Shown here one piece after another: positions 47,142-62,288 of a stretch of DNA of 64,000 bases. The stretch is taken from positions 1,984,001-2,048,000 of the forward strand of contig NZ_CP138335.1 in the NCBI RefSeq assembly GCF_040256745.1, read 5' to 3'. The notes under the pieces were generated by a model, which was given only the letters and a program-made list of their open reading frames with translations, did no database searches and had not been told where the DNA came from. The position numbers and the translations under genes are program-made. Numbering within the stretch: position 1 is the first letter of the stretch; each line of letters begins with the position of its first letter. The stretch comes from Scrofimicrobium sp. R131. GTDB lineage: Bacteria; Actinomycetota; Actinomycetes; Actinomycetales; Actinomycetaceae.

Positions 47142-49940
47142 TCAGTGTTCGGTCCCGCCCGCGGCCCGGTCCGGATCGGTGGCACCACTGGCCACCGCCA
47201 CCGCACTGATGAGGGAAACGTATTCCTGCCCAGTGGCCCTCGTCATCCCAATCTCGCAGGTGCGGTTGGTGGAGATCCACAGGTCCACGCCCTGGACGTC
47301 GGCCGCCTCCGGCTCGGTGGCAGCTGCGGTCAGCTCGGGGTGTAGCATTCCGCGGTCACCCGCGAACCCACAGCAACCCCAATCGTCTGGGACCCGTGCC
47401 TGACCGACCACCTGCTGCGCCACCTGTCGGACGGCTTCAGTTGAACCCAAGTGCGTGGTGGAACAGGTGGGGTGGAGGGCCGCCTGGTGCCAGGTAACCC
47501 GTAGTTGCCCGGCCGGCAGTCGGGGCAGGATCACGTCTCGAAGAAACACCGGGGCATCCAAAACCCGGTAGCCGTCAGCGAACTTCACCAGCCCCTCGGT
47601 GCACGAGGAGTTGTCGCACACCACCGGGAGCCGGCCACCCTCGGTTGCCACTTCCAAGGCCGCCCGAACTTGGCTCCGGATCCGGTCCGCAGACTGTCCC
47701 TTGGAGGTCCACGGGGTGGCGCAGCAGAGACGATCCAGGCCCGGTGGGAACCGCAGAGTCACCCCGGCCTGCTCGCACAGCAGCTGGAAATCCAGCTGGG
47801 TATTGCCGGAGGAGCCGTCCAGCGGAGCCGGGGCAAACATGGCATTCAGACACGAAGGCAGGTAGACCGCCTCCACCGGTCCGGTACTCCGGTGGTACCG
47901 CGCCACTTTGCTCCGCCGCCGCCCTCCGCCCGGCAAATCCGCAGTCCAAAGCGGAACCCGGTCAGGCCCAACTATTGCTCGCAGCATCCGGGTGATGCCG
48001 GTGACCATCGAGGCGGGCAGGCGCTGGGCCACGCTCAGGGCCAGGGCGGCGCCCACGGTAACCGCTGACCAGTGTCGAGCCGCCAGCGCCCACATCACCC
48101 GGAACCAGCGCGGACTGCGCTGCCGGCGCTGTTCCCGCACCAGGTCCCCGGTGTTGATGTCGAGCGGACAGGCCACTTCACACAGCCCATCCACCGCACA
48201 GGTATCCACCGCCGCGTACTCGAATGCCTGCTCAAGTTGCTTGGCCCCCACCCGGTCCCCTCGCTGACGGGCCAACGCAATTTCCCGCTCGGCCACAATT
48301 CTGGTTCGCGGGGTCAACGTCAGCTGATGGCTGGGGCAGGACGGCTCGCAGTAGCCGCACTCCACGCATCGGTCCACCAGCGGATTGACCGCGGGAGTCT
48401 CCTTCAGCGACCGCAAGTGCAGGTGGGGATCATCGGTGAGGATCACCCCCGGGTTACAGAGCTGGTCCGGGTCGAAAGCGGATTTCAGGTCGCGCATGAT
48501 CCGGTAGAGCTCGGGGCCGTACTGTCGCTCGACAAACGGGGCCATGGCTCTACCGGTCCCGTGTTCAGCCTTGAGCGCCCCACCCCGTGACAGCACCAAC
48601 TCCACCAGTTCCTCCGTAAAAGCTTCCAGGCGCTGACGGCCCCGGTCCGAGCCGAAATCGTCGGACAACATGAAGTGCAGATTGCCATCTTTGGCGTGGC
48701 CGAAGATCACCGCGTCGCGGTAGTCGAACCGCTCCAGCAGGTTGGAGAGGTCGCGAGTGGTGTCAGCCAGGGCCGGCACGGGCACCGCGATGTCCTCCAG
48801 CAGGGTTCGTTCGCTGCTGGCCCCGGCCACGGAAGCATACAGTCCTTTCCGGACCGCCCACAGGTGAGCCCGAACAGCCGAGTCGGTGGTAAAGCTGGGG
48901 GCTGCGGGCACGGTTTGAGCCCGGACCAGAGCTTCGGCCAGATCCGCCTCGGACTCCTCCTGGTACTCAACTAGCAGCGCGGCCTGTTCTTTCAAGTCCA
49001 GGCCCACCAGTTCCGCCGGCGGGTGCGGCAGATTTTGGGCCACCGCCAGTGCCCGCGCATCCATCAGTTCGAGGGCAGCCACCCCGGTCCCAACCAGGGG
49101 GGCAATCGCCTCGGCCGCCCGATGGACGTCGGGAAAAAGCCACAGGGCGGTGGCGGCATGGGGGCGGACCGGCACGGTCCGGTAGACCGCCTCGGAAACG
49201 AACCCGAGGGTGCCCTCGCTGCCCACCAGCAGATGGACCAGCAGGTCCAGGGGCTCGGAGTAATCCAGGAACGCATTGAGGCTGTAGCCCATCGTGTTTT
49301 TTTGGCTGAATTGCCGCCGCACCTCAGCCACCAGGTCGGGCCGTGCCCACAGTTGATCGCGGAGCCGTGTGAGCGTGTCAACCAGGTTGGGCTCCAACTC
49401 GGCCAGCTTGTCGGCAGCTCCGGGGTCGGCGGTATTCAAAATGGTGCCGGAAGGCAGCACGACCTCGAGCGACTCGATCAGCCGGTAGCTGTTCTGGTCG
49501 GTACCGCACAGCATCCCCGACGCATTGTTGGCCAGCACCCCACCCACGGTCGCGGCAATCTCGCTGGCCGGATCCGGCCCCATTTTCCGGCCGTGGCGGG
49601 CCAGAGCCCGGTTCACCTGCCGGATAGTCACCCCCGGCTGGACCCACACCCGATGTCCCCGGTCCAACGGCACCACCGCTTTGAACGCGGCCCTGGTATC
49701 CACCAGGATCCCTTCGGACTGGGCCTGCCCATTCAAACTGGTGCCTCCCGAGCGGAAAGTTACCGGCAAGTGACGCCGACGCGCCTCCCGAAACAGCTCT
49801 GCCATCTGCGCCGCAGAGTCGACCTGGCGCACCTCCCTGGGAGTCACCAGAAAGTGGGAGGCGTCGTGAGCCCAGACTCGCCGGTACAGTTCCTGGGCGG
49901 CTCCACCCGAACGCAAAGCTTCAGCACGCGAGAGGCTCAT
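47142..49940 (-). CDS. FAD- and Fe-S-binding oxidoreductase, D-lactate dehydrogenase type (GlcD-GlpC fusion)
   Basis: This 932-residue protein joins a GlcD-like FAD domain (FRSGGTSLNGQ and GPDPASEIAATVGGVLANNASG in the PP-loop/FAD region; GALKAEHGTGR near the active site) to a GlpC-like part with two 4Fe-4S motifs (CVECGYCEPSCP; CAVDGLCEVACPLD) and C-terminal CCG domains (DDWGCCGFAGDRG). Such fusions oxidise D-lactate or related 2-hydroxy acids and pass electrons to quinone. ATG at 49940 overlaps anmK as ATGA, making it the last gene of the amino-sugar operon. D-lactate is the second product of MurQ, so D-lactate is the likely substrate; 2-hydroxyglutarate is the main alternative. Confidence 0.85.
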   Translation of the reverse strand: MSLSRAEALRSGGAAQELYRRVWAHDASHFLVTPREVRQVDSAAQMAELFREARRRHLPVTFRSGGTSLNGQAQSEGILVDTRAAFKAVVPLDRGHRVWVQPGVTIRQVNRALARHGRKMGPDPASEIAATVGGVLANNASGMLCGTDQNSYRLIESLEVVLPSGTILNTADPGAADKLAELEPNLVDTLTRLRDQLWARPDLVAEVRRQFSQKNTMGYSLNAFLDYSEPLDLLVHLLVGSEGTLGFVSEAVYRTVPVRPHAATALWLFPDVHRAAEAIAPLVGTGVAALELMDARALAVAQNLPHPPAELVGLDLKEQAALLVEYQEESEADLAEALVRAQTVPAAPSFTTDSAVRAHLWAVRKGLYASVAGASSERTLLEDIAVPVPALADTTRDLSNLLERFDYRDAVIFGHAKDGNLHFMLSDDFGSDRGRQRLEAFTEELVELVLSRGGALKAEHGTGRAMAPFVERQYGPELYRIMRDLKSAFDPDQLCNPGVILTDDPHLHLRSLKETPAVNPLVDRCVECGYCEPSCPSHQLTLTPRTRIVAEREIALARQRGDRVGAKQLEQAFEYAAVDTCAVDGLCEVACPLDINTGDLVREQRRQRSPRWFRVMWALAARHWSAVTVGAALALSVAQRLPASMVTGITRMLRAIVGPDRVPLWTADLPGGGRRRSKVARYHRSTGPVEAVYLPSCLNAMFAPAPLDGSSGNTQLDFQLLCEQAGVTLRFPPGLDRLCCATPWTSKGQSADRIRSQVRAALEVATEGGRLPVVCDNSSCTEGLVKFADGYRVLDAPVFLRDVILPRLPAGQLRVTWHQAALHPTCSTTHLGSTEAVRQVAQQVVGQARVPDDWGCCGFAGDRGMLHPELTAAATEPEAADVQGVDLWISTNRTCEIGMTRATGQEYVSLISAVAVASGATDPDRAAGGTEH

Positions 49941-51109
49941 GGGGCGACAGTTCCTTCCAGGTTCAGGGACAGCAGCGGGGGCAGGGGTGTGGGCAGCTCG
50001 AGCGGGCCGGCACCCGGGGTGATGGTCCCCAGCACGCGCGGCCCACGAGCGCCGGTCACCCCCGGGAGAGTGGCCGGAACTCCGTGCAGGGTGCACCACC
50101 CAATCAGGGCGCACAGGATCGCTTCTTTCGCCCCCGCGTCCACCCCCAATTGGTCGGTCAGCTCCACCGTCGCCTCGGGGAGGCGGCGTCGAAGGGCTGC
50201 CAGCAGCACCGGGTTTTGGGCACCCCCGCCGGAGACGAACACCGATCCCACCGCGGACAGGTCCCGAGCCACCGTCAACGCGGTCAGTTCGGTCAAGGTG
50301 GCCACCACGTCGACGGGGGCGAGGCGGGGCCAGCGAGCCAGCGGCCCCTGCAAATACTCCCAGTTGAAGTGCTCTTTTCCGGTCGACTTGGGGGCTGGCA
50401 ACCGGTAGTAGGGGTCATCGGCCAGCAGGTCCAGCAGGGGAACGAAAGGACTGCCTGCCGCCGCCAAACGCCCATCCACGTCAAACCCGACTGAGTTCAG
50501 CTTCAGGTGGGTGACGTAGGTGTCGATCAACGCGTTGGCCGGTCCCGTATCCCAAGCCTCGACCCGGGTGCCCACCCGGACGGTGACGTTGGCGATTCCA
50601 CCCAGATTCAAGGTAGCCGCCCCTCGCCCCGACCCGGTAGCCGGTGCCAGCAGGGCCGCGTCCAGGAAGGAGACGAGTGGGGCTCCCTGACCTCCGGCCG
50701 CAAGATCGCGGACCCGCAGATCCGCCACCACCGGCAGACCGGTACGCTCCGCAATCTCCGCCGGCTGGCCCAACTGCATGGTGCCACGGGCGGAACCATC
50801 CGGGACCCAGTGGCAGACAGTCTGCCCGTGGGAGCAGATCGCGTCGGCGCCTCCGCTCGCTGCCAGCGCCGCCTCGGCCACTTCGGCAAACAGTTCACCG
50901 AGGTAAACGTCAGCCCGAACAACGTCCTCCAATGAGACCCGGGCCGGTGGAAACAGACTCTGGATTAGGGCCCGACCCTCCGGAGAAATCGGGGTCTCAT
51001 TTGCCCACTGCAACCGTCCGGTCAGGTGTCCGTCACGGTAGGTAAAGTCAACTACTGCCGCGTCCACCCCGTCGCAAGAGGTGCCCGACATCAGGCCGAG
51101 GATTCGCAT
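49937..51109 (-). CDS. anmK: Anhydro-N-acetylmuramic acid kinase AnmK
   Basis: AnmK cleaves the 1,6-anhydro ring of anhydroMurNAc (made by lytic transglycosylases) and phosphorylates it to MurNAc-6-phosphate, the MurQ substrate. The 390-residue protein begins with GLMSGTSCDGVDAAVVDF, the ATPase signature of the family; further motifs are SHGQTVCHW, LNLGGIANVT, DTGPANALID and VSGGGAQNPVL. It overlaps the kinase gene upstream by 1 nt (TAATG) and the dehydrogenase gene downstream by 4 nt. Confidence 0.95.
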   Translation of the reverse strand: MRILGLMSGTSCDGVDAAVVDFTYRDGHLTGRLQWANETPISPEGRALIQSLFPPARVSLEDVVRADVYLGELFAEVAEAALAASGGADAICSHGQTVCHWVPDGSARGTMQLGQPAEIAERTGLPVVADLRVRDLAAGGQGAPLVSFLDAALLAPATGSGRGAATLNLGGIANVTVRVGTRVEAWDTGPANALIDTYVTHLKLNSVGFDVDGRLAAAGSPFVPLLDLLADDPYYRLPAPKSTGKEHFNWEYLQGPLARWPRLAPVDVVATLTELTALTVARDLSAVGSVFVSGGGAQNPVLLAALRRRLPEATVELTDQLGVDAGAKEAILCALIGWCTLHGVPATLPGVTGARGPRVLGTITPGAGPLELPTPLPPLLSLNLEGTVAP

Positions 51110-51993
51110 TAGTCGACGGCCAGGACCTGGTGACGGGCCAAGCGCAGGGCCCCGGTCAAGCCCGAGTTTCCTTCGGAGACAGTCCAGCCCAACTCCTGCA
51201 ACCGCGAGCGCAATCCGGCGGCAACGGGATGATCCCCCGTGGCAACGGAGCCAACCAAAACCAGGGGCCCGCCGTCGGCCCCCGGGAGCGACTCGACTGT
51301 CCTCACCAACTCGGACACCGCCTCGTCGACGATCTCGGCCGCCACCGGGTCCCCCAGGTGGTAGGCCTGGTCGACAAAGCGGGCATACTTTCCCAACTCT
51401 TTGGGCGAGGCCGCGTAAACGGAGGCAATCAGCTCACAGGCGGTCTCGTCGCGCAGGACCAACTTGGTCAGCAGAGTGGCTGGTCCGCGCCCGGAGTGCC
51501 CGTCCAAAGCGGCGCGCACTGCCGCCCGGCCCAGCCAGACCCCGCCGCCGCGGTCACCCAGCAGGTAACCGTAGCCGTCGCTGGTGGCCCCGAGTTCGGC
51601 CCCGCTCACCAACCCGGCAATTGCGCCGGTGCCGGCAATCAGCACGGTACCGGCCGGACGTGCCTCTCCCGACCAGAACGCCACCACCAGGTCGGATACC
51701 GCCCGCACCGGACTGGTCAGGCCGTGCCGGCGCCAAGCCGACTCCAGTGCCCGGGTCAGTGCCGGACCGTTGGTAATGAACCCGGCCAATCCGGCCACGC
51801 CGCCGACGATCCGACCGGTGGGAGCCGCCGCTAGCGCCCACCCGAGGGTTTCGTCGAATGATCGACCCGGGTCACCGCCTGAGTTCGGGTTGATTCCGGG
51901 TCCGGTGGCTTCGGCTAACTGGTTCCCCTCCAGGTCGGCAATTGCCACCCGCAGGGTGGTGCCGCCCCCGTCCATTCCGACCACGAGGTCCAT
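51109..51993 (-). CDS. BadF/BcrA-type N-acetylglucosamine / N-acetylmuramic acid kinase (MurK-like)
   Basis: The 294-residue protein is an ASKHA-fold kinase of the BadF/BadG/BcrA group with the phosphate-1 loop GMDGGGTTLR (residues 6-15), LIAGTGAIAGLV (phosphate-2) and LLGDRGGGVWLGR. Relatives include eukaryote-like GlcNAc kinases and clostridial MurK, which phosphorylates both MurNAc and GlcNAc. With no PTS transporter in the locus, a cytosolic kinase is needed to make MurNAc-6-phosphate, and this is the candidate. It overlaps the regulator gene by 1 nt (TGATG). Confidence 0.85.
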   Translation of the reverse strand: MDLVVGMDGGGTTLRVAIADLEGNQLAEATGPGINPNSGGDPGRSFDETLGWALAAAPTGRIVGGVAGLAGFITNGPALTRALESAWRRHGLTSPVRAVSDLVVAFWSGEARPAGTVLIAGTGAIAGLVSGAELGATSDGYGYLLGDRGGGVWLGRAAVRAALDGHSGRGPATLLTKLVLRDETACELIASVYAASPKELGKYARFVDQAYHLGDPVAAEIVDEAVSELVRTVESLPGADGGPLVLVGSVATGDHPVAAGLRSRLQELGWTVSEGNSGLTGALRLARHQVLAVD

Positions 51994-52868
51994 CAGCTTT
52001 CCCCTTGACTTCGGAGTCGTCCCACGGCCGCCAGGGTGGCTTCAAGCGCATCAATGCTGCGGTCAAAAGTCTGCTGGGCAATGGCAACAAAGAGACAGTC
52101 CACCACCGTCAGTTGGGCGAGGCGGCTGCTGGTGGCCCCGGCCCGGAAGGTCGTTTCGCGAGCAGCGGTCAGCAGCGTCAGGTCAGCCAGCTCGGCCAGC
52201 GGAGACAGGGGCGAATTGGTGATGGCTACCGCGGTGGCACCGCGTTCCTGGGCCAGTTGCAGCAGCGTGCAGGTTTCGCTGGTCCGACCCGAATGCGAAA
52301 ACCCGAACGCCACCGTCTGCTCGTTGGCCAGAGCCGCCGAGACCGCGGCACCGTGAGGGTCGGCATAGCTAAAAGCGGTTAGTCCGATCCGGTGGAGTTT
52401 ACCCTGGAAGTCCGCCGCCACCAGAGCGGAGGCCCCCACCCCGTAGATTTCGATCCGGTTGGCCCGGACCACCCGGGCCACCACCTCGGACAGCGTTTCC
52501 AGGGACAGGGAGTTGGCCGTGTCTGAGACCGAGGTGACGTCCGCATAGGCAATCTTCTTGACCACCGAGTCGATGTCGTCCTCGGGCAGGATACCCCCCT
52601 GGTAGGCCACCGAATTTTCGTCGGAGTCGGGCCTACCTTCGGCCGCCAACGCCAGACGCAACTGCGGATAACCGGGGTAGCCGAACGCACGGCAGAACCG
52701 GATCACGGTGGTCTCAGACGTCTGCGCGGCGCGAGCTAGCTCCGTGATCGGCATAGCTGCAGCCCGGTTGGGGTCGGCGACGATTATCTCCCCCACCCGG
52801 CGAATGGCCGGTTGCAGGTCGGGAAGTCCCCGGCGGATACGAACACTCAGCGCTGCCTCTTCGGTCAT
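51993..52868 (-). CDS. murR: RpiR/MurR-type transcriptional regulator
   Basis: This 291-residue protein has the N-terminal RpiR helix-turn-helix (ITELARAAQTSETTVIRFCRAFGYPGYPQLR, about residues 40-70) and a C-terminal SIS sugar-phosphate-binding domain (about 125-260; FSHSGRTSETCTLLQ). MurR of E. coli is of this family and senses MurNAc-6-phosphate to control murQ. It is coupled to the transporter genes upstream (ATGA) and to the kinase downstream, so it is co-expressed with its presumed targets. The symbol reflects context and family rather than proof. Confidence 0.82.
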   Translation of the reverse strand: MTEEAALSVRIRRGLPDLQPAIRRVGEIIVADPNRAAAMPITELARAAQTSETTVIRFCRAFGYPGYPQLRLALAAEGRPDSDENSVAYQGGILPEDDIDSVVKKIAYADVTSVSDTANSLSLETLSEVVARVVRANRIEIYGVGASALVAADFQGKLHRIGLTAFSYADPHGAAVSAALANEQTVAFGFSHSGRTSETCTLLQLAQERGATAVAITNSPLSPLAELADLTLLTAARETTFRAGATSSRLAQLTVVDCLFVAIAQQTFDRSIDALEATLAAVGRLRSQGES

Positions 52869-53725
52869 TTCGTTTCCCCCAACACCTGTTTGCCAAACCG
52901 GTCGAAATCTTCTCCCGATGCTAGTTCGGCGCGGACCGAGTCGCGGAGTCGTCCGTGATTTGCCGGAATCGGCGCGGCGCTCAATAGCAGTTTCGTGTAT
53001 TTGTGTTGTGGATCAAGAATAACCTGATCTGAGGGCCCCCTTTCGACCACCTCGCCGCGGTAGAGCACCATAATCTCGTCGGAGAAGTGCCGGGCGGTGG
53101 CCAGGTCATGCGTAATGTAGAGCACCCCCAGATTGTCCTCCCGCTGGAGGCGGGCCAGCAGGTTTAGCACGGAGAGCCGAATCGACACGTCGAGCATTGA
53201 GACCGGCTCGTCGGCGACTAGGTACTGAGCTCCAGGAGCCAAAGCCCGGGCAATCGCCACGCGTTGCCGCTGCCCCCCGGAAAGTTCGTGGGGGTGGCGG
53301 GCCGCGTAGGACTCCGCTGGCTCCAGGTTTACGCGGGTCAGCAGTTCCTGCACGGCCCGGTCGGCCTCGGCTCGCGTCTTCACTTTCCCGTGGATTCTCA
53401 GAGGCCGTTCCAGGTGATGCTGAATCGAGTGGAACGGGTTGAGGGACGCAAACGGGTCCTGGTAAACCATCTGAACCTTGTGCAGGTATTCCTGGCGCGA
53501 CTTGGCGGTCAGCCCATCTACAGTGATGCTCCCGCTGCTCGGTTTCTCCAGGCGCATGATCATTTTGGCGATCGTGGATTTGCCCGAGCCGGACTCTCCT
53601 ACCAGGGCGATGGTTTTGCCGGGCTTCAACTCGAAGGAGACATCTCGCACCGCCGTCAGGGTGGAGCTGCGCAGGCCCTGGCGGAGGCGGAACTGCTTGG
53701 TTACCCGGTCAACTATCAGGCTCAT
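52865..53725 (-). CDS. Oligopeptide/dipeptide-type ABC transporter ATPase (DppF/OppF)
   Basis: An ABC ATPase of 286 residues with Walker A GESGSGKST, Q-loop VYQDPFASLNP, signature LSGGQRQRVAIARAL and Walker B YLVADEPVS. The last point differs from most ABC proteins only in using the usual Opp-type VSMLDVS sequence. It is the second of two ATPases in the importer, coupled by 4-nt overlaps on both sides. The locus suggests muropeptides or amino-sugar peptides as cargo. Confidence 0.92.
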   Translation of the reverse strand: MSLIVDRVTKQFRLRQGLRSSTLTAVRDVSFELKPGKTIALVGESGSGKSTIAKMIMRLEKPSSGSITVDGLTAKSRQEYLHKVQMVYQDPFASLNPFHSIQHHLERPLRIHGKVKTRAEADRAVQELLTRVNLEPAESYAARHPHELSGGQRQRVAIARALAPGAQYLVADEPVSMLDVSIRLSVLNLLARLQREDNLGVLYITHDLATARHFSDEIMVLYRGEVVERGPSDQVILDPQHKYTKLLLSAAPIPANHGRLRDSVRAELASGEDFDRFGKQVLGETK

Positions 53726-54621
53726 CGGTTGTCACCTTCCCCGGTGCGAACAAACCCGCCTTCCTCTCCCAGCAAGCTGGGGAATGAGCTCAGCAGTTTC
53801 TTCGTGTACTCGTGTTGGGGGTCCTCGTAAATGCTCTGAGCCGTATTCAGCTCGACAATCCGGCCGGTGCGCATGATTGCGATCCGGTCGGAGATCTCCA
53901 GCAGCAGCGGCAGGTCGTGGGTGATGAAGATGACCGCAAAGTTCAGCTGCTCGCGCAGGCGCATGATTTCGCGCAGAATCCCCCGCTGCACGACCACGTC
54001 TAGGGCTGTGGTCGGCTCGTCCATGATCATCACCTGCGGGCGCAGGGCCAGTGCCATCGCGATCATCACCCGCTGACGCATTCCGCCCGACAATTCGTGG
54101 GCAAAGGCACCCAGCCGGCTGGGATCCACCCCAACTAACTCCAGCAACTCCTCGGATTCTCGCTGCTTCTCTGCTTTCGACATGCCCGGTCGATGGGTGT
54201 CAAAGACGTCGAAGAGCTGGGCCCGAACCGAAATCACCGGGTTGAGCGCGTTCATCGCTCCCTGGAACACCATCGAGATCTTTGACCAGCGGAAACGGCG
54301 CAGGTCATCCCCGTACAGTCCGGTGACGTTGATATCCGTCCCCGAAAGGTCGTGCAGCGTCACCTGGCCGTCTACCAGCAGTGCCGGCGGCTTCAGCAGC
54401 CGGTTAATGCCGTAGGCCAGGGTGGTTTTTCCACACCCGGATTCCCCAGCCAGCCCCAAGATTTCCCCTCGGTTGAGGGTGAGGGAGACATCTTGGACTG
54501 CCCGGACCGGTTCAGCGGTCTCGTAGGTGATGGTCATGTTCCGGGCAGTGAGCACCGGGGTTTGGTCAGCCAGATAGGCATCGTGGGCGGGGGTGGTCAG
54601 GGGACCGGCCTCGTTTGTCAT
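53722..54621 (-). CDS. Oligopeptide/dipeptide-type ABC transporter ATPase (DppD/OppD)
   Basis: The first ATPase of the importer, 299 residues: Walker A GESGCGKTT, Q-loop MVFQGAMNALNP, signature LSGGMRQRVMIAMALALRP and Walker B MIMDEPTTALD. The C-terminus lacks the long four-cysteine extension seen in some OppD proteins. It overlaps the permease gene upstream and the second ATPase gene downstream by ATGA. Confidence 0.92.
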   Translation of the reverse strand: MTNEAGPLTTPAHDAYLADQTPVLTARNMTITYETAEPVRAVQDVSLTLNRGEILGLAGESGCGKTTLAYGINRLLKPPALLVDGQVTLHDLSGTDINVTGLYGDDLRRFRWSKISMVFQGAMNALNPVISVRAQLFDVFDTHRPGMSKAEKQRESEELLELVGVDPSRLGAFAHELSGGMRQRVMIAMALALRPQVMIMDEPTTALDVVVQRGILREIMRLREQLNFAVIFITHDLPLLLEISDRIAIMRTGRIVELNTAQSIYEDPQHEYTKKLLSSFPSLLGEEGGFVRTGEGDNR

Positions 54622-55559
54622 TTCGCGTCCTTCCCCGCTTGGGCGAGCCGCGCCTGGCGGCGCAGTTCCCGCTCGGCCCGGCGAACCGACCGGACCGCGT
54701 CCGGGGCCGCTTTCAGCTTCGGATTGATGGTCTCATCGATGGAGAAGTTGATCAGGGACAAGCCCGTTCCCAGCAGAGCGATCAGCAGCCCCGGCGGAAC
54801 AAACCACCACCAGGCCCCCACGTGGAACGCGTTTTGCTGGGCGGCTTGGTTCAACATGGTTCCCCAGGTGATAGCTCCCGATGGACCCAATCCCAGGTAG
54901 GAGAGTCCCGCCTCGGAGAGGACGGCCAAGACCACGGCCGAGAGGAACATGGCCGCCAACAGGGGCAGCAGGTTGGGCAGGATTTCCACCAGGATGATCC
55001 GGGGGGCGCGCTCGCCGGCAGTCCGAGCTGCCGACACGTAGTCGCGGTTCCGCAAGGATTTGGCCTGAAGGCGCAAGACCACCGCTGATCCCGCCCAAGA
55101 GGTGATCCCCAAAACGAATGCGATCATCCACATGGACCGGGTCTCCAGGTAGGTGGCGATGACAATCACCAGTGGTAGGCCCGGAATCACCAGCATGATG
55201 TTCGTGATTAGGGAGAGCACCTCGTCAGTGATCCCACCTCGGTACCCGGCCACGATGCCAAAGAACAGCGAGAAAACGACGGCAATAAACCCGGCGGTCG
55301 CCCCCACCAGGAGCGAGCCGCTGGCCCCCTCGGCCAACTGTGCCAGGACATCGGCCCCCAGGTTATTGGTCCCCAGCAGATGCTGTGGACTGGGCGGCTG
55401 CATCGGGGTGTTGCCGTAAGCCCGCGGATCCTGGGTGAATCTGGGCCCCAGGAGGGCAAACAGGATGATTCCGACGGTCAGGAACAGCCCCAAACCGAGC
55501 TTTAGATCAAGCCGACGCCGGCGACGGCCGGACGGTTTCACTTCTTTTGCGCTAGACAT
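54618..55559 (-). CDS. ABC transporter permease (DppC/OppC)
   Basis: A 313-residue inner-membrane permease with an N-terminal basic segment (GRRRRR), a first helix at about 20-40 and five further helices. The EAA loop is RAPRIILVEILPNLLPLL. HLLGTNNLGADVLAQLAEG in the N-terminal OppC-like domain is family-typical. The ATG at 55559 overlaps the DppB-like gene by 8 nt; a longer open frame upstream lies inside that gene and is rejected. Confidence 0.92.
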   Translation of the reverse strand: MSSAKEVKPSGRRRRRLDLKLGLGLFLTVGIILFALLGPRFTQDPRAYGNTPMQPPSPQHLLGTNNLGADVLAQLAEGASGSLLVGATAGFIAVVFSLFFGIVAGYRGGITDEVLSLITNIMLVIPGLPLVIVIATYLETRSMWMIAFVLGITSWAGSAVVLRLQAKSLRNRDYVSAARTAGERAPRIILVEILPNLLPLLAAMFLSAVVLAVLSEAGLSYLGLGPSGAITWGTMLNQAAQQNAFHVGAWWWFVPPGLLIALLGTGLSLINFSIDETINPKLKAAPDAVRSVRRAERELRRQARLAQAGKDAK

Positions 55560-56547
55560 TGCTTCTGGCCCTTGGATCGATAAAGCCGTACACCATGTCC
55601 ATGACGAAGTTTGCGAGCAGCACGGTGACGGTGATGACGAGGAAGACTCCCTGCATGAGGGCAAAGTCCTTTTCGGAAACGGCGGTCATGAGCAGTTTGC
55701 CCACCCCCGGATAGCTGAAGACCTGCTCCATCACGATGGAGCCCGCCACCACGAAGCCCAGGGTAATCCCGAACGCCGCTAGGGACGGCAGCGCAGCATT
55801 TCGTCCCGCGTACCAGACGAAGATTCGGCTCTTCTTCAGGCCCTTGGCCTCCGCGGTGACCACGTAATCCTCAGACAGGGTAGAGACCATCATGTTGCGC
55901 ATGCCGAGCACCCAACCCCCAACGGAGGCAATCACGATCGTGAGGGCCGGCAGCAGCCCGTGATAGATGGCGCTGCCCACGAAGGCCCACGACAGTTCGG
56001 GTCCGGCAGGAAAGTCACGCATCGAGTAGCCGCCGATGATGGGGAACAGACCGAGGGAGACCGAGAAGAGAGAGACAAAAATCAGGGCCAACCAGAAGTA
56101 TGGGACCGACTGGAGCAGGGTCATCCCGGGAATAATCGCGTCGGCCGCGGTCCCCCGCTTCCACCCGGCGTAGGCTCCGATACTGACCCCCAGAATGAAG
56201 GAGATGACGGTGGCGGTGCCAACCAGAGCCAGTGTCCACGGCAGGGCCGAGGCAATCAGCGAGGAGACCGAGGCCGGAAACATCGAACTGGAGGTGCCGA
56301 GGTCTCCGTGCAAAATATTGCCCCAGTAGCTGAGGTACTGGTCCCAGATTGGCGAGTTGGAGGTGCCAAAGATCATGTCGATCGATCTCTCCATGGCCGG
56401 GGTGATTTCCCCGCCGCGCCGCATGATCTTCTCCATGAAGATTGTGCGCGGGTCGCCTGGCATCAGGCGAGGAAGCATAAAGTTGAGCGAAACCGCGGCC
56501 CACAGAGTGAACAGATAGAACGCGATTCGTCGTAGGTAGTACCTCAC
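55552..56547 (-). CDS. ABC transporter permease (DppB/OppB)
   Basis: A 331-residue permease with the OppB N-terminal pattern (first helix residues 9-30, then MPGDP) and five more helices. The EAA motif is LKKSRIFVWYAGRNAALPSL. It pairs with the DppC-like protein to form the pore. It follows the binding-protein gene across a 73-nt gap that holds a hairpin, which likely lowers its expression relative to the binding protein. Confidence 0.92.
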   Translation of the reverse strand: MRYYLRRIAFYLFTLWAAVSLNFMLPRLMPGDPRTIFMEKIMRRGGEITPAMERSIDMIFGTSNSPIWDQYLSYWGNILHGDLGTSSSMFPASVSSLIASALPWTLALVGTATVISFILGVSIGAYAGWKRGTAADAIIPGMTLLQSVPYFWLALIFVSLFSVSLGLFPIIGGYSMRDFPAGPELSWAFVGSAIYHGLLPALTIVIASVGGWVLGMRNMMVSTLSEDYVVTAEAKGLKKSRIFVWYAGRNAALPSLAAFGITLGFVVAGSIVMEQVFSYPGVGKLLMTAVSEKDFALMQGVFLVITVTVLLANFVMDMVYGFIDPRARSNV

Positions 56548-56578
56548 GCCGTCGACACTCCTTTGCGTCGATAGTGCG

Positions 56579-56614
56579 GTGGTCTGGCCGCCCGGCCTCG
56601 GACGGCCAGACCAC
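56579..56614 (-). terminator. Hairpin between the binding-protein and permease genes
   Basis: GTGGTCTGGCCG and CGGCCAGACCAC form a perfect 12-bp stem with a 12-nt loop, 7 nt after the binding-protein stop. No T-run follows, so it may act as a partial terminator or as an mRNA-stabilising 3' hairpin, as in many ABC operons. Confidence 0.65.
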
Positions 56615-56620
56615 TGCGGC

Positions 56621-58318
56621 TTACTTGTAGGTCAGTTTCGACAGGATGTAGGCCGCCGACACCCCATCCCAGGAAGCGGGGAACGCGTACAGGTTGTCTT
56701 CGGTGGGCCAACCGGTGAAGTCGGTCTGGTTGAAGAACGTCTGCGAGCCACCGTGGAAGAGGGAAATGTAAGGCACGTCCTCGACAATGTTGCGCTGGAC
56801 AATCCCGTAGGCTTCCTTCAACTGCTCAACATCGTTGGTGACCGCTGCCGCCGCGATCGCCTGATCTACTTCCGGGTTGGAGTAGCGCGAGTAGTTGGTC
56901 TGACCCGGCTCCAGGGAGCTGCCCACCGGCTGGGTGTAGTCGGTGGTGAACGAGTCGCGGTAGATGGTGAACGGATCAGAAATCGGGGTTCCAAAGAGTG
57001 CCCCGAGGAACAGTTCGTAGTCCCCGGTCATCCGCCGGTCAGAGTACTGATCAGCGGTGATCGTGCCGTTGTTGAGCTCCAGCCCGGCCGCCTTGGCCTG
57101 GGCAACCATCAGCTCGGCAGCCGCGTTCTGGTCGGACCAACCCTCCACCGACTCCAGCTTGATCGAGGCCCGTTCCCCGTCCTTGGCGTAGATGCCGTCG
57201 GCGCCCAGCGTCCAGCCGGCCGCCTCCATCACCTGCTTGGCTGCTTCCACATCCGCGTTCTCCGGGTTCAGTACCTCCAGGCCGGGCGCCACCCACTGCT
57301 CGTCCCGATTCGGCTTGACGAAGGTGGGCGAGGCGGGCTGAGCGAGATTGTAGTAGGCCTTCTCGTTGATTTCGGCCCGGTCGATCGCAAGGTTCAGAGC
57401 TTGGCGGATTTCCTTGTGGGTCTGTGCCCCGGTGCAACCCAGATCCGCGTTGGAGCAGATCATCACGACGGTCGGGTTGGGTGAAGCCACGTTCAGGTAG
57501 CCCAAGTTTCCGGCCTGGATCAGCTGCTCAGGCTGGGGAACAAAGAAGGTGGAGTAGTCGAGCTGGCCGGCCTTGAACAGCGATTCAGCCGATGAATTGC
57601 CATCGATCCCCAGGTACTGGACCCGGTTGATTCCGGGCCGGTCCGGATCCCAGTAGTTGGGGTTAGCCACCACGGTGTAGGCAGCGTCGGTGACGTTCTC
57701 GACCATGAAGGGACCGGAGCCAACCGGGTTGCTCGAGTTGTCGAAGGTGACCAGGTCGTCGACGGCGCCAAACACGTGCTCGGGAACGATGTAGGTGGCA
57801 CCGAGCAGCGAGTATTCGCGAGTGAAGGAGGGCTCGGCGAACTGGATGGTGATCGTCTGCTCGTCCACCACTTCGACCCCGGTGACGTAGTCCATCTGCA
57901 CGGCGTCGTTAGTGAACGAGTACTTCACGTCGTCAGCGGTGAGGGGTTCACCGTCATTCCACTTGACGTCGGGACGCAGACCGATGGTCAGCTCAAGGCC
58001 GTCTTCGGACCACTCTGCGCTCTCGCCCAGCAGCGGAACCGGGTCGGTGTCCTGCGCCTTGTTGTAGAAGAAGAGCGGTTCGTAGATCCCACCCATGGCC
58101 GCATGCAGCACGGTGGGAGTGTAGGGGTTGAAGTTCGGCACGATCGGGGTTTGCGACCCGGCGAAAACCACCAGTGTGGGGCCTTCCTGCGCGCCGGCCG
58201 CATCTCCGGACTGACCGGACTGACCGGCCTGGCCTCCCCCGCACGCGGCCAGGAGACCCAGGGAGGCGGTGGCGCCCACAGCTAGGGCCACCCGCTTCCA
58301 GTTCTTAGCTGAGGACAT
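56621..58318 (-). CDS. Lipoprotein solute-binding protein, SBP_bac_5 family (DppA/OppA-like)
   Basis: The substrate receptor of the importer. Residues 1-26 are a lipoprotein signal with the lipobox LLAAC (Cys26), followed by a Gly/Ser/Gln-rich linker and a large type II-C periplasmic-binding fold (LRPDVKWNDGEPLTADDVKYSF is typical). Length 565. Family members bind peptides, murein tripeptide or other oligomers. The ATG at 58318 has AAAGGAA upstream; a longer frame to 58372 is less likely. Its promoter has an operator-like palindrome between -35 and -10. Confidence 0.92.
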   Translation of the reverse strand: MSSAKNWKRVALAVGATASLGLLAACGGGQAGQSGQSGDAAGAQEGPTLVVFAGSQTPIVPNFNPYTPTVLHAAMGGIYEPLFFYNKAQDTDPVPLLGESAEWSEDGLELTIGLRPDVKWNDGEPLTADDVKYSFTNDAVQMDYVTGVEVVDEQTITIQFAEPSFTREYSLLGATYIVPEHVFGAVDDLVTFDNSSNPVGSGPFMVENVTDAAYTVVANPNYWDPDRPGINRVQYLGIDGNSSAESLFKAGQLDYSTFFVPQPEQLIQAGNLGYLNVASPNPTVVMICSNADLGCTGAQTHKEIRQALNLAIDRAEINEKAYYNLAQPASPTFVKPNRDEQWVAPGLEVLNPENADVEAAKQVMEAAGWTLGADGIYAKDGERASIKLESVEGWSDQNAAAELMVAQAKAAGLELNNGTITADQYSDRRMTGDYELFLGALFGTPISDPFTIYRDSFTTDYTQPVGSSLEPGQTNYSRYSNPEVDQAIAAAAVTNDVEQLKEAYGIVQRNIVEDVPYISLFHGGSQTFFNQTDFTGWPTEDNLYAFPASWDGVSAAYILSKLTYK

Positions 58319-58340
58319 CTTCGTTCCTTTCCACTGTCCT

Positions 58341-58359
58341 CCCGACCAACGTGGTCGGG
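58341..58359 (-). other. Hairpin in the leader of the binding-protein mRNA
   Basis: CCCGACCA-ACG-TGGTCGGG forms a perfect 8-bp stem directly upstream of the ribosome binding region. It could stabilise the mRNA 5' end or modulate ribosome access. Confidence 0.4.
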
Positions 58360-58372
58360 CAGGATGACTCAC

Positions 58373-58402
58373 ATCATATGTAAATTTCTTTCAGAAAAGC
58401 AA
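58373..58402 (-). promoter_or_regulatory. Promoter of the transporter / amino-sugar operon
   Basis: On the minus strand TTGCTT (58402-58397) and TATGAT (58378-58373) are 18 bp apart, giving a leader of about 48 nt before the ATG at 58318. The operator-like palindrome 58379-58393 fills most of the spacer. Confidence 0.6.
58379..58393. promoter_or_regulatory. Candidate MurR operator 1
   Basis: TGTAA-ATTTC-TTTCA fits the palindrome TGNAA-N5-TTNCA. It lies between the -35 and -10 elements of the transporter operon, where a bound repressor would block RNA polymerase. A near copy occurs upstream of nagZ. Confidence 0.55.
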
Positions 58403-58458
58403 CCGCTTGCGTGAGTTACTAACTAAAGAGCAGTGCAATTGGCTTGGTCGCGCCGTTC

Positions 58459-59586
58459 TCACCGATAGAGCGGCGCGGTGACAGGTCGGATTGGCGCGGG
58501 CGAAGCCTCCACCAAATCCACTCCGGTCCCGAGTTGCTCCCGCAGGACCGGGCTCCCCCACAGCAGATCGACGAAGGGGCGGGACGCGCCCTCCCAGTCC
58601 GGCTCACGCCAGGCGAAGTGCTCCGGCGCCTGCTCTTTGGCTGTCTCCAGCAGCGCCAATCCGGCCTGGATCGGATCGAAACGGTCCGGATCCAACACGT
58701 GCAGTTGCACGCCGGTCAGAACCTGGCCGGCGTACTTATGGCCGGTAGGCTGGAATCTGGCCAATCGAAACTGAACACCGGGCAGGTCTCGCTGCCGCAG
58801 CGCCCACGCCCACTCCTCGGTCAACCACGGTGCCCCCACCAACTCGAAGGGCAGCGTCGTTCCCCGCCCCTCAGACAGATTGCTTCCCTCCAGCAGTACC
58901 GTCCCCGGGTAGACCAGGGCCGAGGCGGGGGTGGGTAGGTTCGGGGAGGGGGGCACCCACGGCAGCCCCGTCTCGGCCCAGAATTTGTCTCGGCGCCAAC
59001 CCTTCATGGCAATCACGCTCGGCTCTGGCAGATCTAACCAGGCCGCCGCCTCCCGTAGCAGTTCTCCCAGCGTCAGACCGTGCCGAAGTGGCACTCCCAA
59101 CTCGCCGACCAGGCTGACACAGTCGGCCTGCAAGCCGGGACCGGCCACCACCCCCGCGAGCGGGTTTGGCCGATCCAGCACGTAGACAGGGACCCCCCGC
59201 CGGGAGGCAGCTCGCAGGAAGCGAAGCGCGCTCCAGGCGTAGGTGTAGCAGCGCGAGCCCACGTCCTGGAGATCAATCACAACCCCGTCAAGCCCTGCCA
59301 TTTCGGCCGCCCAGCGCGATTCCTCCTGCCCGTAGGTGTCGACCACCGGCAAACCGGTGACCGGCTCAACTTGATCCGACTCGGCTTCGCCCGCCTGGGC
59401 ACTACCCCAAAGGCCATGTTCGGGGCCAAACAGTACCTGCAACCGGGGGTCAACCCGGTGCCAGCCAATCCACAGTGGGACCAGATCCGGGGTAACAGCG
59501 GTGTAGTTCGTTAGCAGCCCTAGTCGTGCCCCGGGGATCAGTTCCGGGCGAGCCAGCAGTTGCTCGGCTCCGGTTTGCACCTTCAT
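58459..59586 (-). CDS. namZ: NamZ-like exo-beta-N-acetylmuramidase (DUF1343, GH171)
   Basis: The DUF1343 family was identified in Bacillus subtilis as NamZ, which removes terminal MurNAc from peptidoglycan fragments. Motifs in this 375-residue protein: GLLTNYTAV, FGPEHGLWG, VIDLQDVGSRCYTY, DRPNPL, WVPPSPNLPT, YPGTVLLEGSNLSEGRGTT. There is no signal peptide, unlike the secreted Bacillus enzyme, so it should act in the cytoplasm on imported fragments. It overlaps nagZ as ATGA; NagZ removes GlcNAc and NamZ removes MurNAc, so together they can shorten a glycan alternately. Confidence 0.9.
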   Translation of the reverse strand: MKVQTGAEQLLARPELIPGARLGLLTNYTAVTPDLVPLWIGWHRVDPRLQVLFGPEHGLWGSAQAGEAESDQVEPVTGLPVVDTYGQEESRWAAEMAGLDGVVIDLQDVGSRCYTYAWSALRFLRAASRRGVPVYVLDRPNPLAGVVAGPGLQADCVSLVGELGVPLRHGLTLGELLREAAAWLDLPEPSVIAMKGWRRDKFWAETGLPWVPPSPNLPTPASALVYPGTVLLEGSNLSEGRGTTLPFELVGAPWLTEEWAWALRQRDLPGVQFRLARFQPTGHKYAGQVLTGVQLHVLDPDRFDPIQAGLALLETAKEQAPEHFAWREPDWEGASRPFVDLLWGSPVLREQLGTGVDLVEASPAPIRPVTAPLYR

Positions 59587-61229
59587 TGGTCGGCCGGGGT
59601 GGGCACACCCATTGGCAGTCCTCCACGGGCCGGCTCCTCGCCCAGGAGCACCCGTCCGGCCGCCTCCACTGCAAACTGGTTGTCGCCGTAGGTGAGGAGC
59701 ACCGAATACTTGCCGGCCACCGAAGCCGCCTCATAGGGGGATCGGAGGGCCACCACGTGCACCACCAACCCGGCCCGGCTCAGTTCAGCCAACACTTCGG
59801 CCACGGGGGCGTGTTCCTTCCAGGCGTCACGCAATACCAGGACCGCTTCCCGAGCGGAAGTGTCGGGCCGGCCCGGCCACGGGGTGCCTTCGGTCCAGAC
59901 CAATTCGGTCACACCGTGACCCGCGGCCCTCAGCTGCCGACCAAGGACTTCCCCCGGGTTGACGCCGCGCTTCTGGGGATCCACACCCGGATGAATCAGC
60001 AGCAGTTCGGCTCCCGGGGTGAGCACGGCCGGCACCTCCGCGTTCCGCTGAGCGACGGCTGCGGTGGCCACCCGCCGGGCCAACTCTGCCTGCTCCTGGT
60101 GGGGAAGCGTCTCGGGGCCCGGGCCAATCGGCTCGTCCAGTTGGAGCTTGGCCTTCAGGGTCAGGATCCGGCGCGCCGAGGCGACCAGCTGATCCCGGTC
60201 CAGGCGCCCTTCCCGCAGTGCTCGCAGCACCGCCTCGTAGGCGGTGGGCAGATCAACCGGCATCAGCAGCTGATCGACCCCGGCTTGCAGGGCGCTAACG
60301 CAGGCTTCGGCCGGTCCTTCGGGACGTTCCGCTCCACCCATGTCGAGCGCATCGGTGATGATCACGCCGGTGAAACCCAGTTCGTGGCGCAGGAGGTCGG
60401 TGACAATTGGCCGGGAGAAAGTGGCCGCATCGACCGGGTCCAAAGCGGGAAAAGCGACGTGGCCCAGCATGACCGTGTCGGCCCCGGCCTCGATGGCAGC
60501 CTGAAATGGCAGGCGTTCGGTTCGGTCCCACTGGTCGCGGCTGAGTCCTACCGACGGCAGGCCCAGGTGCGGATCGACCGCCGCCGAACCGTAGCCGGGG
60601 AAATGCTTCAAAGTTGAGGCCAGACCGGCTTCAGACCAAGCCCGAATCGTGACCGCCAACTGTCGGGCCGCCCGGTGCGGATCCGACCCGGCAGAGCGAA
60701 TGTTGACCCCGGGGTTCTCCGCCACCACGTTGACATCGGCCACTGGAGCCAGCGTCTGGGCAATCCCCACCGATCGAAGCTGGGCGGCGGTGGCCCGCGC
60801 GGTTTCGCGCCACAGCTCCTCATCCCCGGTGGCCCCCAGCGCCATCGCGCCCGGCAGATGAGTGACGCCCACCCGCACCCGAGCCACCGTTCCGTTCTCC
60901 TGATCGGTGGAAATCAACAGTGGCACTTCGGCAGCGGCCTGCAGTTCCAGCACTCGACGCCGAATGTCGGCTACCGGCTCGTGGTCACCGCCGGGAGGGA
61001 AGTAAATGATGGCCCCCAGGTGATAGTCGCGGATCAGCTGGAGCAGCGCCTCGTGTGCGCGTTCAACCTGGTCGGGCGAGGCGCTGTCACCGAACCCAAG
61101 GATGTTCTTCGCGGCATGCCCGCCGCTGGCCACGGAGAACAACTGCCCCACCAGGTGCTCGTCGTCCCAAGTTTCAAGTTGAGCTAGCGCTTCCTTCACC
61201 GTCTGTTTGTGCACCGATTGCTCCTTCAT
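59583..61229 (-). CDS. nagZ: Beta-N-acetylglucosaminidase NagZ (GH3), two-domain form
   Basis: NagZ removes non-reducing GlcNAc from peptidoglycan fragments. The N-terminal GH3 barrel (about 1-340) has ISTDQENG, the NagZ signature KHFPGYG (208-214) with the Asp219/His221 pair, and the nucleophile in ITDALDMGG (Asp293). About 200 more residues form a second domain, as in Gram-positive NagZ. No signal peptide is present, so it is cytosolic. The ATG at 61229 has GGAG 5-6 nt upstream; the frame extending to 61391 crosses the promoter and is rejected. Confidence 0.93.
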   Translation of the reverse strand: MKEQSVHKQTVKEALAQLETWDDEHLVGQLFSVASGGHAAKNILGFGDSASPDQVERAHEALLQLIRDYHLGAIIYFPPGGDHEPVADIRRRVLELQAAAEVPLLISTDQENGTVARVRVGVTHLPGAMALGATGDEELWRETARATAAQLRSVGIAQTLAPVADVNVVAENPGVNIRSAGSDPHRAARQLAVTIRAWSEAGLASTLKHFPGYGSAAVDPHLGLPSVGLSRDQWDRTERLPFQAAIEAGADTVMLGHVAFPALDPVDAATFSRPIVTDLLRHELGFTGVIITDALDMGGAERPEGPAEACVSALQAGVDQLLMPVDLPTAYEAVLRALREGRLDRDQLVASARRILTLKAKLQLDEPIGPGPETLPHQEQAELARRVATAAVAQRNAEVPAVLTPGAELLLIHPGVDPQKRGVNPGEVLGRQLRAAGHGVTELVWTEGTPWPGRPDTSAREAVLVLRDAWKEHAPVAEVLAELSRAGLVVHVVALRSPYEAASVAGKYSVLLTYGDNQFAVEAAGRVLLGEEPARGGLPMGVPTPADQ

Positions 61230-61269
61230 TGCAGCTCCACTAGGGTTCAGGTGACTTCCCGCCCCCACT

Positions 61270-61284
61270 TGTAATATAGTTACC
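61270..61284. promoter_or_regulatory. Candidate MurR operator 2
   Basis: TGTAA-TATAG-TTACC matches TGNAA-N5-TTNCA except for the last base. It covers the nagZ -10 element and is about 90 bp before murQ, so one bound repressor could affect both divergent transcripts. Confidence 0.5.
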
Positions 61285-61300
61285 TCAACTTCTCTGTTAA
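61270..61300 (-). promoter_or_regulatory. Promoter of nagZ-namZ
   Basis: TTAACA (61300-61295) and TATATT (61278-61273) are 16 bp apart on the minus strand, each a 5/6 match to consensus, giving a leader of about 37 nt. The -10 element lies inside operator 2. Confidence 0.6.
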
Positions 61301-61370
61301 CGAAAATAATATACATTCCCGGCGGGTCCCGCAACGGATGCGACCGCTGGGACGAGGAATAGAGGCCCCG

Positions 61371-62288
61371 ATGGAGCTCACTCAGGAGCACTCCGATCAG
61401 ATCACCGCGTCGGTGACTGAGTCCACCGACCCGCGATACCAGGAACTCGACCTAATGAGTACCGAAGGAATCCTGCAGGCGATGAACCAGGCAGACCGGT
61501 TGGTGCCCGAAGCGATCAGCCAGGTGATCTCCCAGATTGCCCGGGCAGTCGAAGCGGCCGCGGCCGGCATGGCCCAAGGCGGCCGTCTGCTCTACGTTGG
61601 TGCCGGCACCTCCGGACGCCTGGGAGTACTGGATGCCTCCGAGATTCCGCCGACCTTCTCGGTAGACCCAGCCCGAGTGGTCGGCATCATCGCCGGGGGA
61701 GACCACGCGCTGCGACACGCAATTGAGGGAGCCGAAGACGACTATGCCGCCGGCAGGGCCGACCTCCTGGGCTACCGGTTGAGCGAGAACGACACGGTGG
61801 TCGGGATTACCGCCTCCGGGCGGACGCCCTACGTCTTAGGGGCAATTGCCGCCGCCCAGGAGGCCGGGGCCACCACCGTGGGAATTAGTAACAACTCCCC
61901 GTCCGACCTGGGAACTCTGGCCGACATTCCAATCGAGGTGGTGGTGGGACCGGAAATTGTCTCCGGCTCCACGCGCCTGAAGGCAGGAACAGCCCAGAAA
62001 CTAGTCCTCAACATGATCTCGACCGGGACCATGATTCGACTGGGGAAAACTTACGGGAACCTGATGGTGGACGTGTCAGCCACCAACAAGAAGCTGCAGG
62101 TTCGGGCGCAAAACCTGGTCATGAGAATCACCGGCTGCGAGCTAGAACAGGCTAAGGCGGCGCTGGCAGAGGCCGACGGGAACGTCAAGGTCGCATCGGT
62201 ATCCCTGCTACGGTCGCTGAGCGCCGCTGAAGCGAAAGATCTTTTGGCCGGGAGCGGCGGATTCCTGCGGGCAGCCCTCGATGCCTAG
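61371..62288 (+). CDS. murQ: N-acetylmuramic acid 6-phosphate etherase MurQ
   Basis: MurQ cleaves the lactyl ether of MurNAc-6-phosphate to GlcNAc-6-phosphate and D-lactate. The 305-residue SIS-fold protein has YVGAGTSGRLGVLDASEIPPTF with the catalytic Glu91, AGGDHALRHAIEGAEDD, ITASGRTPYV and the C-terminal MVDVSATNKKL segment, all typical. The ATG at 61371 has AGAGG 5 nt upstream. It is divergent from nagZ-namZ across a 141-bp shared promoter region and ends at a hairpin facing clpC. Confidence 0.95.
   Translation: MELTQEHSDQITASVTESTDPRYQELDLMSTEGILQAMNQADRLVPEAISQVISQIARAVEAAAAGMAQGGRLLYVGAGTSGRLGVLDASEIPPTFSVDPARVVGIIAGGDHALRHAIEGAEDDYAAGRADLLGYRLSENDTVVGITASGRTPYVLGAIAAAQEAGATTVGISNNSPSDLGTLADIPIEVVVGPEIVSGSTRLKAGTAQKLVLNMISTGTMIRLGKTYGNLMVDVSATNKKLQVRAQNLVMRITGCELEQAKAALAEADGNVKVASVSLLRSLSAAEAKDLLAGSGGFLRAALDA

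Follow-up and report, generated by a model that had tools for sequence, protein, structure and literature searches.

We identified a candidate locus for the recovery of N-acetylmuramic acid (MurNAc) in the actinobacterium Scrofimicrobium sp. R131. It occupies positions 47142-62288 of the window, by which we mean the whole 64,000-nucleotide stretch analysed here (positions 1984001-2048000 of the 2.22-Mb single-contig genome, NZ_CP138335.1), and consists of 12 genes. Eleven lie on the minus strand, and the twelfth, murQ, is divergent from them on the plus strand. It seems moderately likely that a cell wall disaccharide would be taken up by an ATP-binding cassette (ABC) importer, digested in the cytoplasm, phosphorylated by a soluble kinase and passed to the etherase MurQ. 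A sequence-only reading of this DNA had proposed MurNAc recovery in which the MurP transporter of the phosphotransferase system (PTS) is replaced by an ABC importer plus a soluble kinase, and the proposal finds support here, including conservation of the gene set in relatives. Overall, what that reading observed was confirmed in part and its interpretation is supported in part. All of the functions it named are present by family match, and the overlapping stop and start codons that it saw through most of the locus are found at eight of the ten minus-strand junctions (1-8 bases each). It had counted thirteen genes rather than 12; a further gene was rejected, as the two minus-strand gaps, 140 bp between namZ and the binding-protein gene and 73 bp between the latter and a permease gene, leave little space.

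The family assignments differ in strength. MurQ scores 377.7 bits, above the cut-off of 302, and AnmK exceeds that of its equivalog model NF007146 (476 against 440). NamZ is matched over both of its domains, NamZ_N with 201 bits and NamZ_C with 143. The gene for NagZ lies beside namZ and murQ, and its glycoside hydrolase family 3 (GH3) domain is clear at 237 bits; the score against the NagZ equivalog NF003740 is 147 bits, under the cut-off of 207. The regulator adjoining the mur genes has HTH_6 and SIS domains and falls below the cut-offs of the MurR-type equivalogs (181 against 378 for NF008458, 109 against 408 for NF012026). Glycolate oxidase and D-lactate dehydrogenases are the structural relatives of the flavin adenine dinucleotide (FAD)/Fe-S fusion protein, which by its domain architecture and these relatives would belong with enzymes oxidising D-lactate or related D-2-hydroxyacids. 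MurQ yields N-acetylglucosamine (GlcNAc) 6-phosphate and D-lactate (PMC5061867; sources given by PMC number are cited from extracts), so the presence of such an enzyme in the operon would be sensible.

Elsewhere in the genome we looked for the transport and downstream steps. No MurP-type PTS was found genome-wide, the best score against the PTS-MurNAc model being 30.7 where the cut-off is 516. Three PTS_EIIC proteins are encoded, one of them GlcNAc-specific (594 against a cut-off of 553). NagB is present above its cut-off, and a NagA-like protein falls slightly below (216 against 225.65). The sequence-only reading had called both the MurNAc PTS and AmiE missing. For the PTS the genome-wide search agrees, and amiE is absent from the 12 locus genes, beyond which the AmiE family was not searched.

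Digestion by NamZ and NagZ is probably cytoplasmic, because neither enzyme has an export signal. By a simple mean-hydropathy measure, used here in place of a signal-peptide predictor, no hydrophobic N-terminus was found on NamZ of the window or on NagZ of three genomes (best 15-residue mean 0.87-1.14). For reference, AnmK and MurQ, both expected to be cytosolic, gave 0.95 and 0.14, the lipoprotein 2.02 and the genome's Amidase_2 protein 2.6.

The permeases and ATPases belong to the Opp/Dpp gene family, and to this extent the importer is of the peptide type that had been claimed for it. The binding protein, however, is closest to chitooligosaccharide-binding proteins. Its best solved relatives are those of Vibrio, VhCBP and VcCBP (1e-52 to 5e-50), followed by Thermotoga-type entries (7.6e-48 to 1e-32). 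The first structure beyond these two groups appears at 3e-25 and nickel binders come next at 2e-24; the ranking is similar when an alignment profile is used for the search. Some of the high-ranking Thermotoga-type entries carry the title 'oligopeptide-binding' (1vr5 at 7.6e-48, 2o7i at 8.3e-33). We take these to be sugar binders, in part because T. maritima proteins that bind cello- and manno-oligosaccharides are counted among the relatives (PMC8449061). Most VhCBP entries are themselves titled 'peptide-binding' in the structure database, and 5YQW, 6LZQ and 7EBI are identified as VhCBP in the same source.

In VhCBP, mutation of Trp363, Asp365 or Trp513 leads to drastic losses of (GlcNAc)2 binding; these three residues are fully conserved across its sugar-binding cluster, and a fourth residue, Phe437, also makes a major contribution (PMC8449061). 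Three of the four are kept in the Scrofimicrobium protein, as W394 and D396 (each in 7/7 aligned rows) and W550 (6/6, one row ending earlier). Among E. coli controls, NikA has Asp/Leu and DppA has Pro/Asn at the Trp363/Asp365 positions, where OppA is unaligned, and all three are unaligned at Trp513. We read the site as one that has retained its clamp for oligosaccharides but altered the part holding the second sugar; this would suit a MurNAc-containing disaccharide, short of proof. Because the closest relatives of the binding protein bind chitooligosaccharides, the importer more likely carries an oligosaccharide than a peptide or free MurNAc, and probably a sugar disaccharide. A peptide as first choice was rejected on this comparison. 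Structure prediction for the binding protein gave a model of low quality (mean predicted local distance difference test, pLDDT, 47.7), which was left unused. We also scanned one to two flanking proteins in each of seven relatives' transporter loci, and in four a glycosidase follows the ATPases: GH20 in Timonella and a GH2-type enzyme in Actinomyces succiniciruminis, a Brachybacterium and a Streptomyces. One Bowdeniella cluster contains a GH20 gene.

The nearest structure to the kinase by sequence is MurK of Clostridium acetobutylicum (8zo3, 4.5e-17). The same protein ranks first by fold when a predicted model of the kinase (mean pLDDT 88) is compared (2.8e-18), yet the two are 26% identical in the structural alignment. 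The C. acetobutylicum murK gene presumably also lies near an Opp-type transporter. At positions 133-135 and 94, which determine specificity in Tannerella forsythia MurK (pocket residues from PMC10465942), the alignment with 8oqw, read by eye over ranges of equal length, places D139-G140-Y141 and S100 of our kinase. C. acetobutylicum MurK, which phosphorylates both MurNAc and GlcNAc (PMC5790795), has G-G-W at 133-135. By its closeness in sequence and fold to a proven MurNAc kinase the enzyme appears to be of MurK type, and MurNAc would be its substrate.

The same gene set was sought in 213 genomes of the family, among them Actinomyces minihominis, Bowdeniella nasicola and Arcanobacterium haemolyticum. 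The kinase was found in 12 (E<=1e-20), NamZ in 19, AnmK above its cut-off in 13 (one a 24.7-bit fragment) and MurQ in 31 at E<=1e-50, a threshold that drops weak SIS-domain matches elsewhere; 22 of the 31 exceed the curated cut-off. The binding protein occurs in 17 genomes at E<=1e-100. Ten of these, with scores of at least 1031 bits, were taken as carrying the close form, because the seven weaker ones mostly lack MurQ and NamZ. All ten encode both NamZ and MurQ (Fisher test, 2e-12 and 1e-9, relatedness ignored). The stretches around their clusters also contain NagZ in 10/10, MurR in 9/10 and a BadF-family kinase in 8/10, three of these kinases merely 30-35% identical to ours. Contact with the importer is seen in eight genomes only, because the drafts G005 and G178 have the cluster pieces on separate short contigs, the importer contigs being covered only at the match itself. 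AnmK and the D-lactate enzyme, each present in five of the ten (the latter counted in these stretches), are accessories rather than constant members, and both were rejected as core genes.

A wider scan, which retained 80 of the 130 confirmed loci, gave a similar division. All seven loci whose binding protein is at least 58% identical carry at least one of NamZ, NagZ, MurR and MurQ, two short contigs among them showing only MurR, or MurR and part of NamZ. The ten close-form genomes account for four of the seven; Tessaracoccus oleiagri, by its name, is from outside the family. Below 58%, only one of 73 loci, in Mycetocola, has any of these genes, namely MurQ, together with a distant kinase; part of a BadF kinase was seen in two others and a 28% match to the D-lactate enzyme in one. 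Because of this difference the importer is, on the loci scanned, a member of a distinct transporter clade that travels with mur genes. The nearest transporter outside that clade, in Timonella senegalensis (L070:9845-19443), has a GH20 hexosaminidase and an amidohydrolase as neighbours and may belong to a GlcNAc-oligosaccharide locus.

The set recurs in other genera in two arrangements, so it is not a chance gathering. Gene order, which the earlier interpretation needed to be conserved, is so only in part. It is kept in the genus Scrofimicrobium itself and in genome G101 (nagZ-namZ-importer-murR-kinase, with murQ divergent). In Bowdeniella, Arcanobacterium and Tessaracoccus, in contrast, the importer comes first and nagZ-namZ-murR follow, with a divergent murQ adjoining the importer in three of four genomes; G109 likewise has importer-nagZ-namZ-murR and a divergent murQ. 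In G101 the MurQ gene is split over two reading frames (L049:11894-12810), either a broken gene or a sequencing error. The binding-protein gene contains one in-frame TAG in G097 (L059:10747-12435, near the C-terminal end) and in G090 (L152). A second type of mur cluster in genus g15 (L021:9497-17268 and L025:9344-18006) has NagZ, AnmK and MurQ, with a BadF kinase on the opposite strand and, in L025, also MurR; an importer of the present kind is absent from it.

We also found a candidate operator. The palindrome TGTAATATAGTTAC sits between nagZ and murQ, where two promoter-like sites were found and 0.2 expected, and it covers part of the -10 hexamer in each of the two divergent promoters predicted there. 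Between the same genes it is exact in G002, G003, G005 and G178 and has two mismatches in G101; G002 and G005 are nearly identical at this site. With two mismatches allowed, the pattern is expected 0.03 times in the window. Its hits are not independent, because five of the sequences scored had served to define the pattern, and the evidence for the operator is position and recurrence rather than the pattern scan. The palindrome is a candidate MurR operator, and a repressor bound there would close both transcription units.

From these parts a pathway can be proposed. Extracellular wall turnover would release short glycan pieces, whose peptide would probably be removed by a secreted amidase. The lipoprotein binding protein would capture a disaccharide such as GlcNAc-MurNAc or GlcNAc-anhydroMurNAc (and/or MurNAc-GlcNAc), and the importer would take it up unphosphorylated. 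In the cytoplasm NagZ would cut GlcNAc, and NamZ MurNAc, from non-reducing ends. The BadF-fold kinase would phosphorylate MurNAc at C6, perhaps GlcNAc too, and AnmK the anhydro form. MurQ would then convert MurNAc 6-phosphate into its two products, of which the amino sugar would pass to central metabolism through NagA and NagB, encoded elsewhere in the genome, and the D-lactate would be oxidised to pyruvate by the FAD/Fe-S enzyme. MurR would repress both divergent units from the one palindrome until MurNAc 6-phosphate builds up; this compound is the MurR effector in E. coli (PMC5061867).

Several observations weigh against this pathway or parts of it. NamZ requires peptide-free MurNAc ends. 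No cytoplasmic amidase was found in a search confined to the Amidase_2 family, whose single member in the genome has a secretion-like N-terminus. In the binding protein, VhCBP Phe437 and the N-acetyl reader Arg436 are apparently not kept (by eye they align to Pro/Gly in a gapped stretch), Asn409 is Ala in 7/7 rows, Ser221 is Phe or Met, and Asn204 is kept in 5/7; VhCBP holds (GlcNAc)2 also by Arg436, Phe437 and Asn409. The flanking proteins scanned show no glycosidase in three of the seven relatives' loci (Cellulosimicrobium, Microbacterium and Oerskovia). The kinase is far under the cut-off of its sole NCBIfam match, NagK_SO3507 (75 against 370), and its pocket has D-G-Y where that of T. forsythia MurK has S-P-L. 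Most of the seven genomes with weaker binding proteins (505-728 bits) lack MurQ and NamZ; G144 has both and G017 has MurQ only. In the five close-form genomes that lack AnmK it is missing anywhere in the genome, and in G002, G097 and G109 no D-lactate enzyme was found next to the cluster, the short contigs of G005 and G178 not permitting a judgement. As for the operator, with at most one mismatch the pattern matches once in the whole genome and a backward control pattern also matches once, so its uniqueness says little. In the clusters of Arcanobacterium, Bowdeniella, G109 and Tessaracoccus we did not find the palindrome. A family-wide operator was rejected, the best sites having three mismatches in Arcanobacterium, Bowdeniella and Tessaracoccus (equalled in 29-63 of 200 shuffles) and four in the G109 loci.

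Three other accounts of the importer were considered. It might carry muropeptides, sugar with stem peptide, the peptide being removed inside. This would fit the gene family of the permeases and ATPases, and YejBEF-YepA of Agrobacterium, based on a broad-specificity peptide ABC transporter, does import muropeptides (PMC9790009). However, the locus is without an amidase, the sole protein of Amidase_2, the one amidase family covered genome-wide, looks secreted, and the binding protein resembles oligosaccharide binders much more closely than peptide binders; we consider muropeptides an unlikely cargo. It is more doubtful still that free MurNAc alone is imported, with NamZ and NagZ acting outside by way of an unrecognised export route. 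Bacillus subtilis AmiE and NagZ do degrade muropeptides extracellularly (PMC5061867), but the enzymes here have no hydrophobic N-termini, and related binding proteins take di- and oligosaccharides (PMC8449061).

The remaining account concerns the mur genes as well: the importer would be a transporter of chitobiose or another glycan with no MurNAc role, the kinase a GlcNAc kinase, and the mur genes neighbours for some other reason. In favour of it, (GlcNAc)2 is the ligand of the nearest binding proteins, the relative in Timonella lies beside GH20 and no mur genes, and the only NCBIfam match of the kinase is a GlcNAc kinase. We nevertheless find this account improbable. The close form of the binding protein is accompanied by NamZ and MurQ in every family genome that has it, the wider scan associates mur-type genes with this transporter at 58% identity or more and almost never below, and the genome is already equipped with a GlcNAc PTS. 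Uptake of a wall disaccharide for MurNAc recovery is the reading that we prefer.

Features of the putative MurNAc recovery locus of Scrofimicrobium sp. R131 (window coordinates)
Feature	Position	Strand	Remarks
murQ, MurNAc-6-phosphate etherase	61371..62288	+	305 aa from ATG 61371; reading frame opens 61338; TIGR00274
Palindrome TGTAATATAGTTAC, candidate MurR operator	61270..61283	+	overlaps both predicted divergent -10 hexamers
nagZ, GH3 beta-N-acetylglucosaminidase	59583..61229	-	548 aa, ATG 61229; reading frame opens GTG 61391; PF00933
namZ, exo-beta-N-acetylmuramidase	58459..59586	-	PF07075, PF20732; structures 4k05, 4jja
Lipoprotein solute-binding protein, family 5, chitooligosaccharide-binding type	56621..58318	-	PF00496 (SBP_bac_5)
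ABC importer permease B	55552..56547	-	PF00528
ABC importer permease C	54618..55559	-	PF00528
ABC importer ATPase 1	53722..54621	-	PF00005
ABC importer ATPase 2	52865..53725	-	PF00005
MurR/RpiR-family regulator	51993..52868	-	HTH_6 + SIS
BadF-fold amino-sugar kinase, MurK-like	51109..51993	-	PF01869 (BadF/BcrA ATPase family)
anmK, anhydro-MurNAc kinase	49937..51109	-	PF03702, 340 bits
FAD/4Fe-4S/CCG fusion, D-lactate (D-2-hydroxyacid) dehydrogenase type	47142..49940	-	932 aa, ATG 49940; PF01565, PF02913, Fer4_8, CCG

The cluster is flanked by ppdK and a clpC-type gene. The former, encoding pyruvate phosphate dikinase (window 44283-46985), lies directly downstream of the D-lactate enzyme, and both would act on pyruvate. 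The relatives examined do not show this neighbourhood. As a cluster member ppdK was rejected, since only distant matches of 25-27% lie near the clusters of relatives.

Loci that combine MurNAc recovery genes are known from other bacteria. The ybbC gene of B. subtilis, which we take to be namZ, encodes a protein that is exported in that organism. As here, MurQ, MurR, NagZ and NamZ are encoded in one B. subtilis locus, murQ-murR-murP-amiE-nagZ-ybbC (PMC5061867). Bacillus, however, relies on the MurP PTS and on muropeptide degradation outside the cell, where we find an ABC importer with a soluble kinase and NagZ and NamZ without export signals; amiE is absent from the locus. In T. forsythia, murTKQ/ampG unite non-PTS import of a peptide-free disaccharide, the same-fold kinase MurK and MurQ in one transcriptional unit, much as proposed here (PMC7670621). 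That organism is Gram-negative, cannot make MurNAc, and uses the major facilitator superfamily permease AmpG with MurT rather than an ABC importer. Agrobacterium tumefaciens likewise employs a peptide-family ABC importer in peptidoglycan recycling, YejBEF-YepA, with a different binding protein, and its muropeptides are processed by the Pseudomonas-type route of AnmK, MupP, AmgK and MurU (PMC9790009). Among actinobacteria, Streptomyces coelicolor SCO4305-4308 includes MurQ and a MurR-like regulator without MurP, as here; in the passages of PMC5061867 that describe it, the other two genes of this putative operon are of unknown function and no importer is assigned.

The combination was described earlier as new, which holds only in part. 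One operon of T. forsythia already joins MurK and MurQ to import without a PTS (PMC7670621), and C. acetobutylicum has a MurNAc/GlcNAc kinase (PMC5790795). Among the matches listed from the open-licence literature we found no description of this arrangement in actinobacteria. The locus varies known MurNAc recovery loci, and its importer is a candidate for a kind not yet known in actinobacteria. A fuller proposal would be that of a dedicated Gram-positive ABC importer for peptidoglycan disaccharides, derived from a transporter of chitooligosaccharide type and working together with NagZ and NamZ, which would do all the digestion in the cytoplasm, and with a built-in D-lactate dehydrogenase that would oxidise the lactyl side chain; we advance it tentatively, giving it slightly less than an even chance.

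S. coelicolor recycles MurNAc though it lacks MurP (PMC5061867), and mycobacteria assimilate MurNAc as well (PMC13041923), so how actinobacteria import this sugar is in question. The locus described here supplies a concrete candidate importer, kinase and operator for that uptake. It also suggests that Opp-family importers annotated 'peptide' may carry cell wall sugar. If the proposal is true, recycling logic of the Gram-negative style would operate in actinobacteria, and this importer would be a candidate for the type not yet known from Streptomyces and its relatives.

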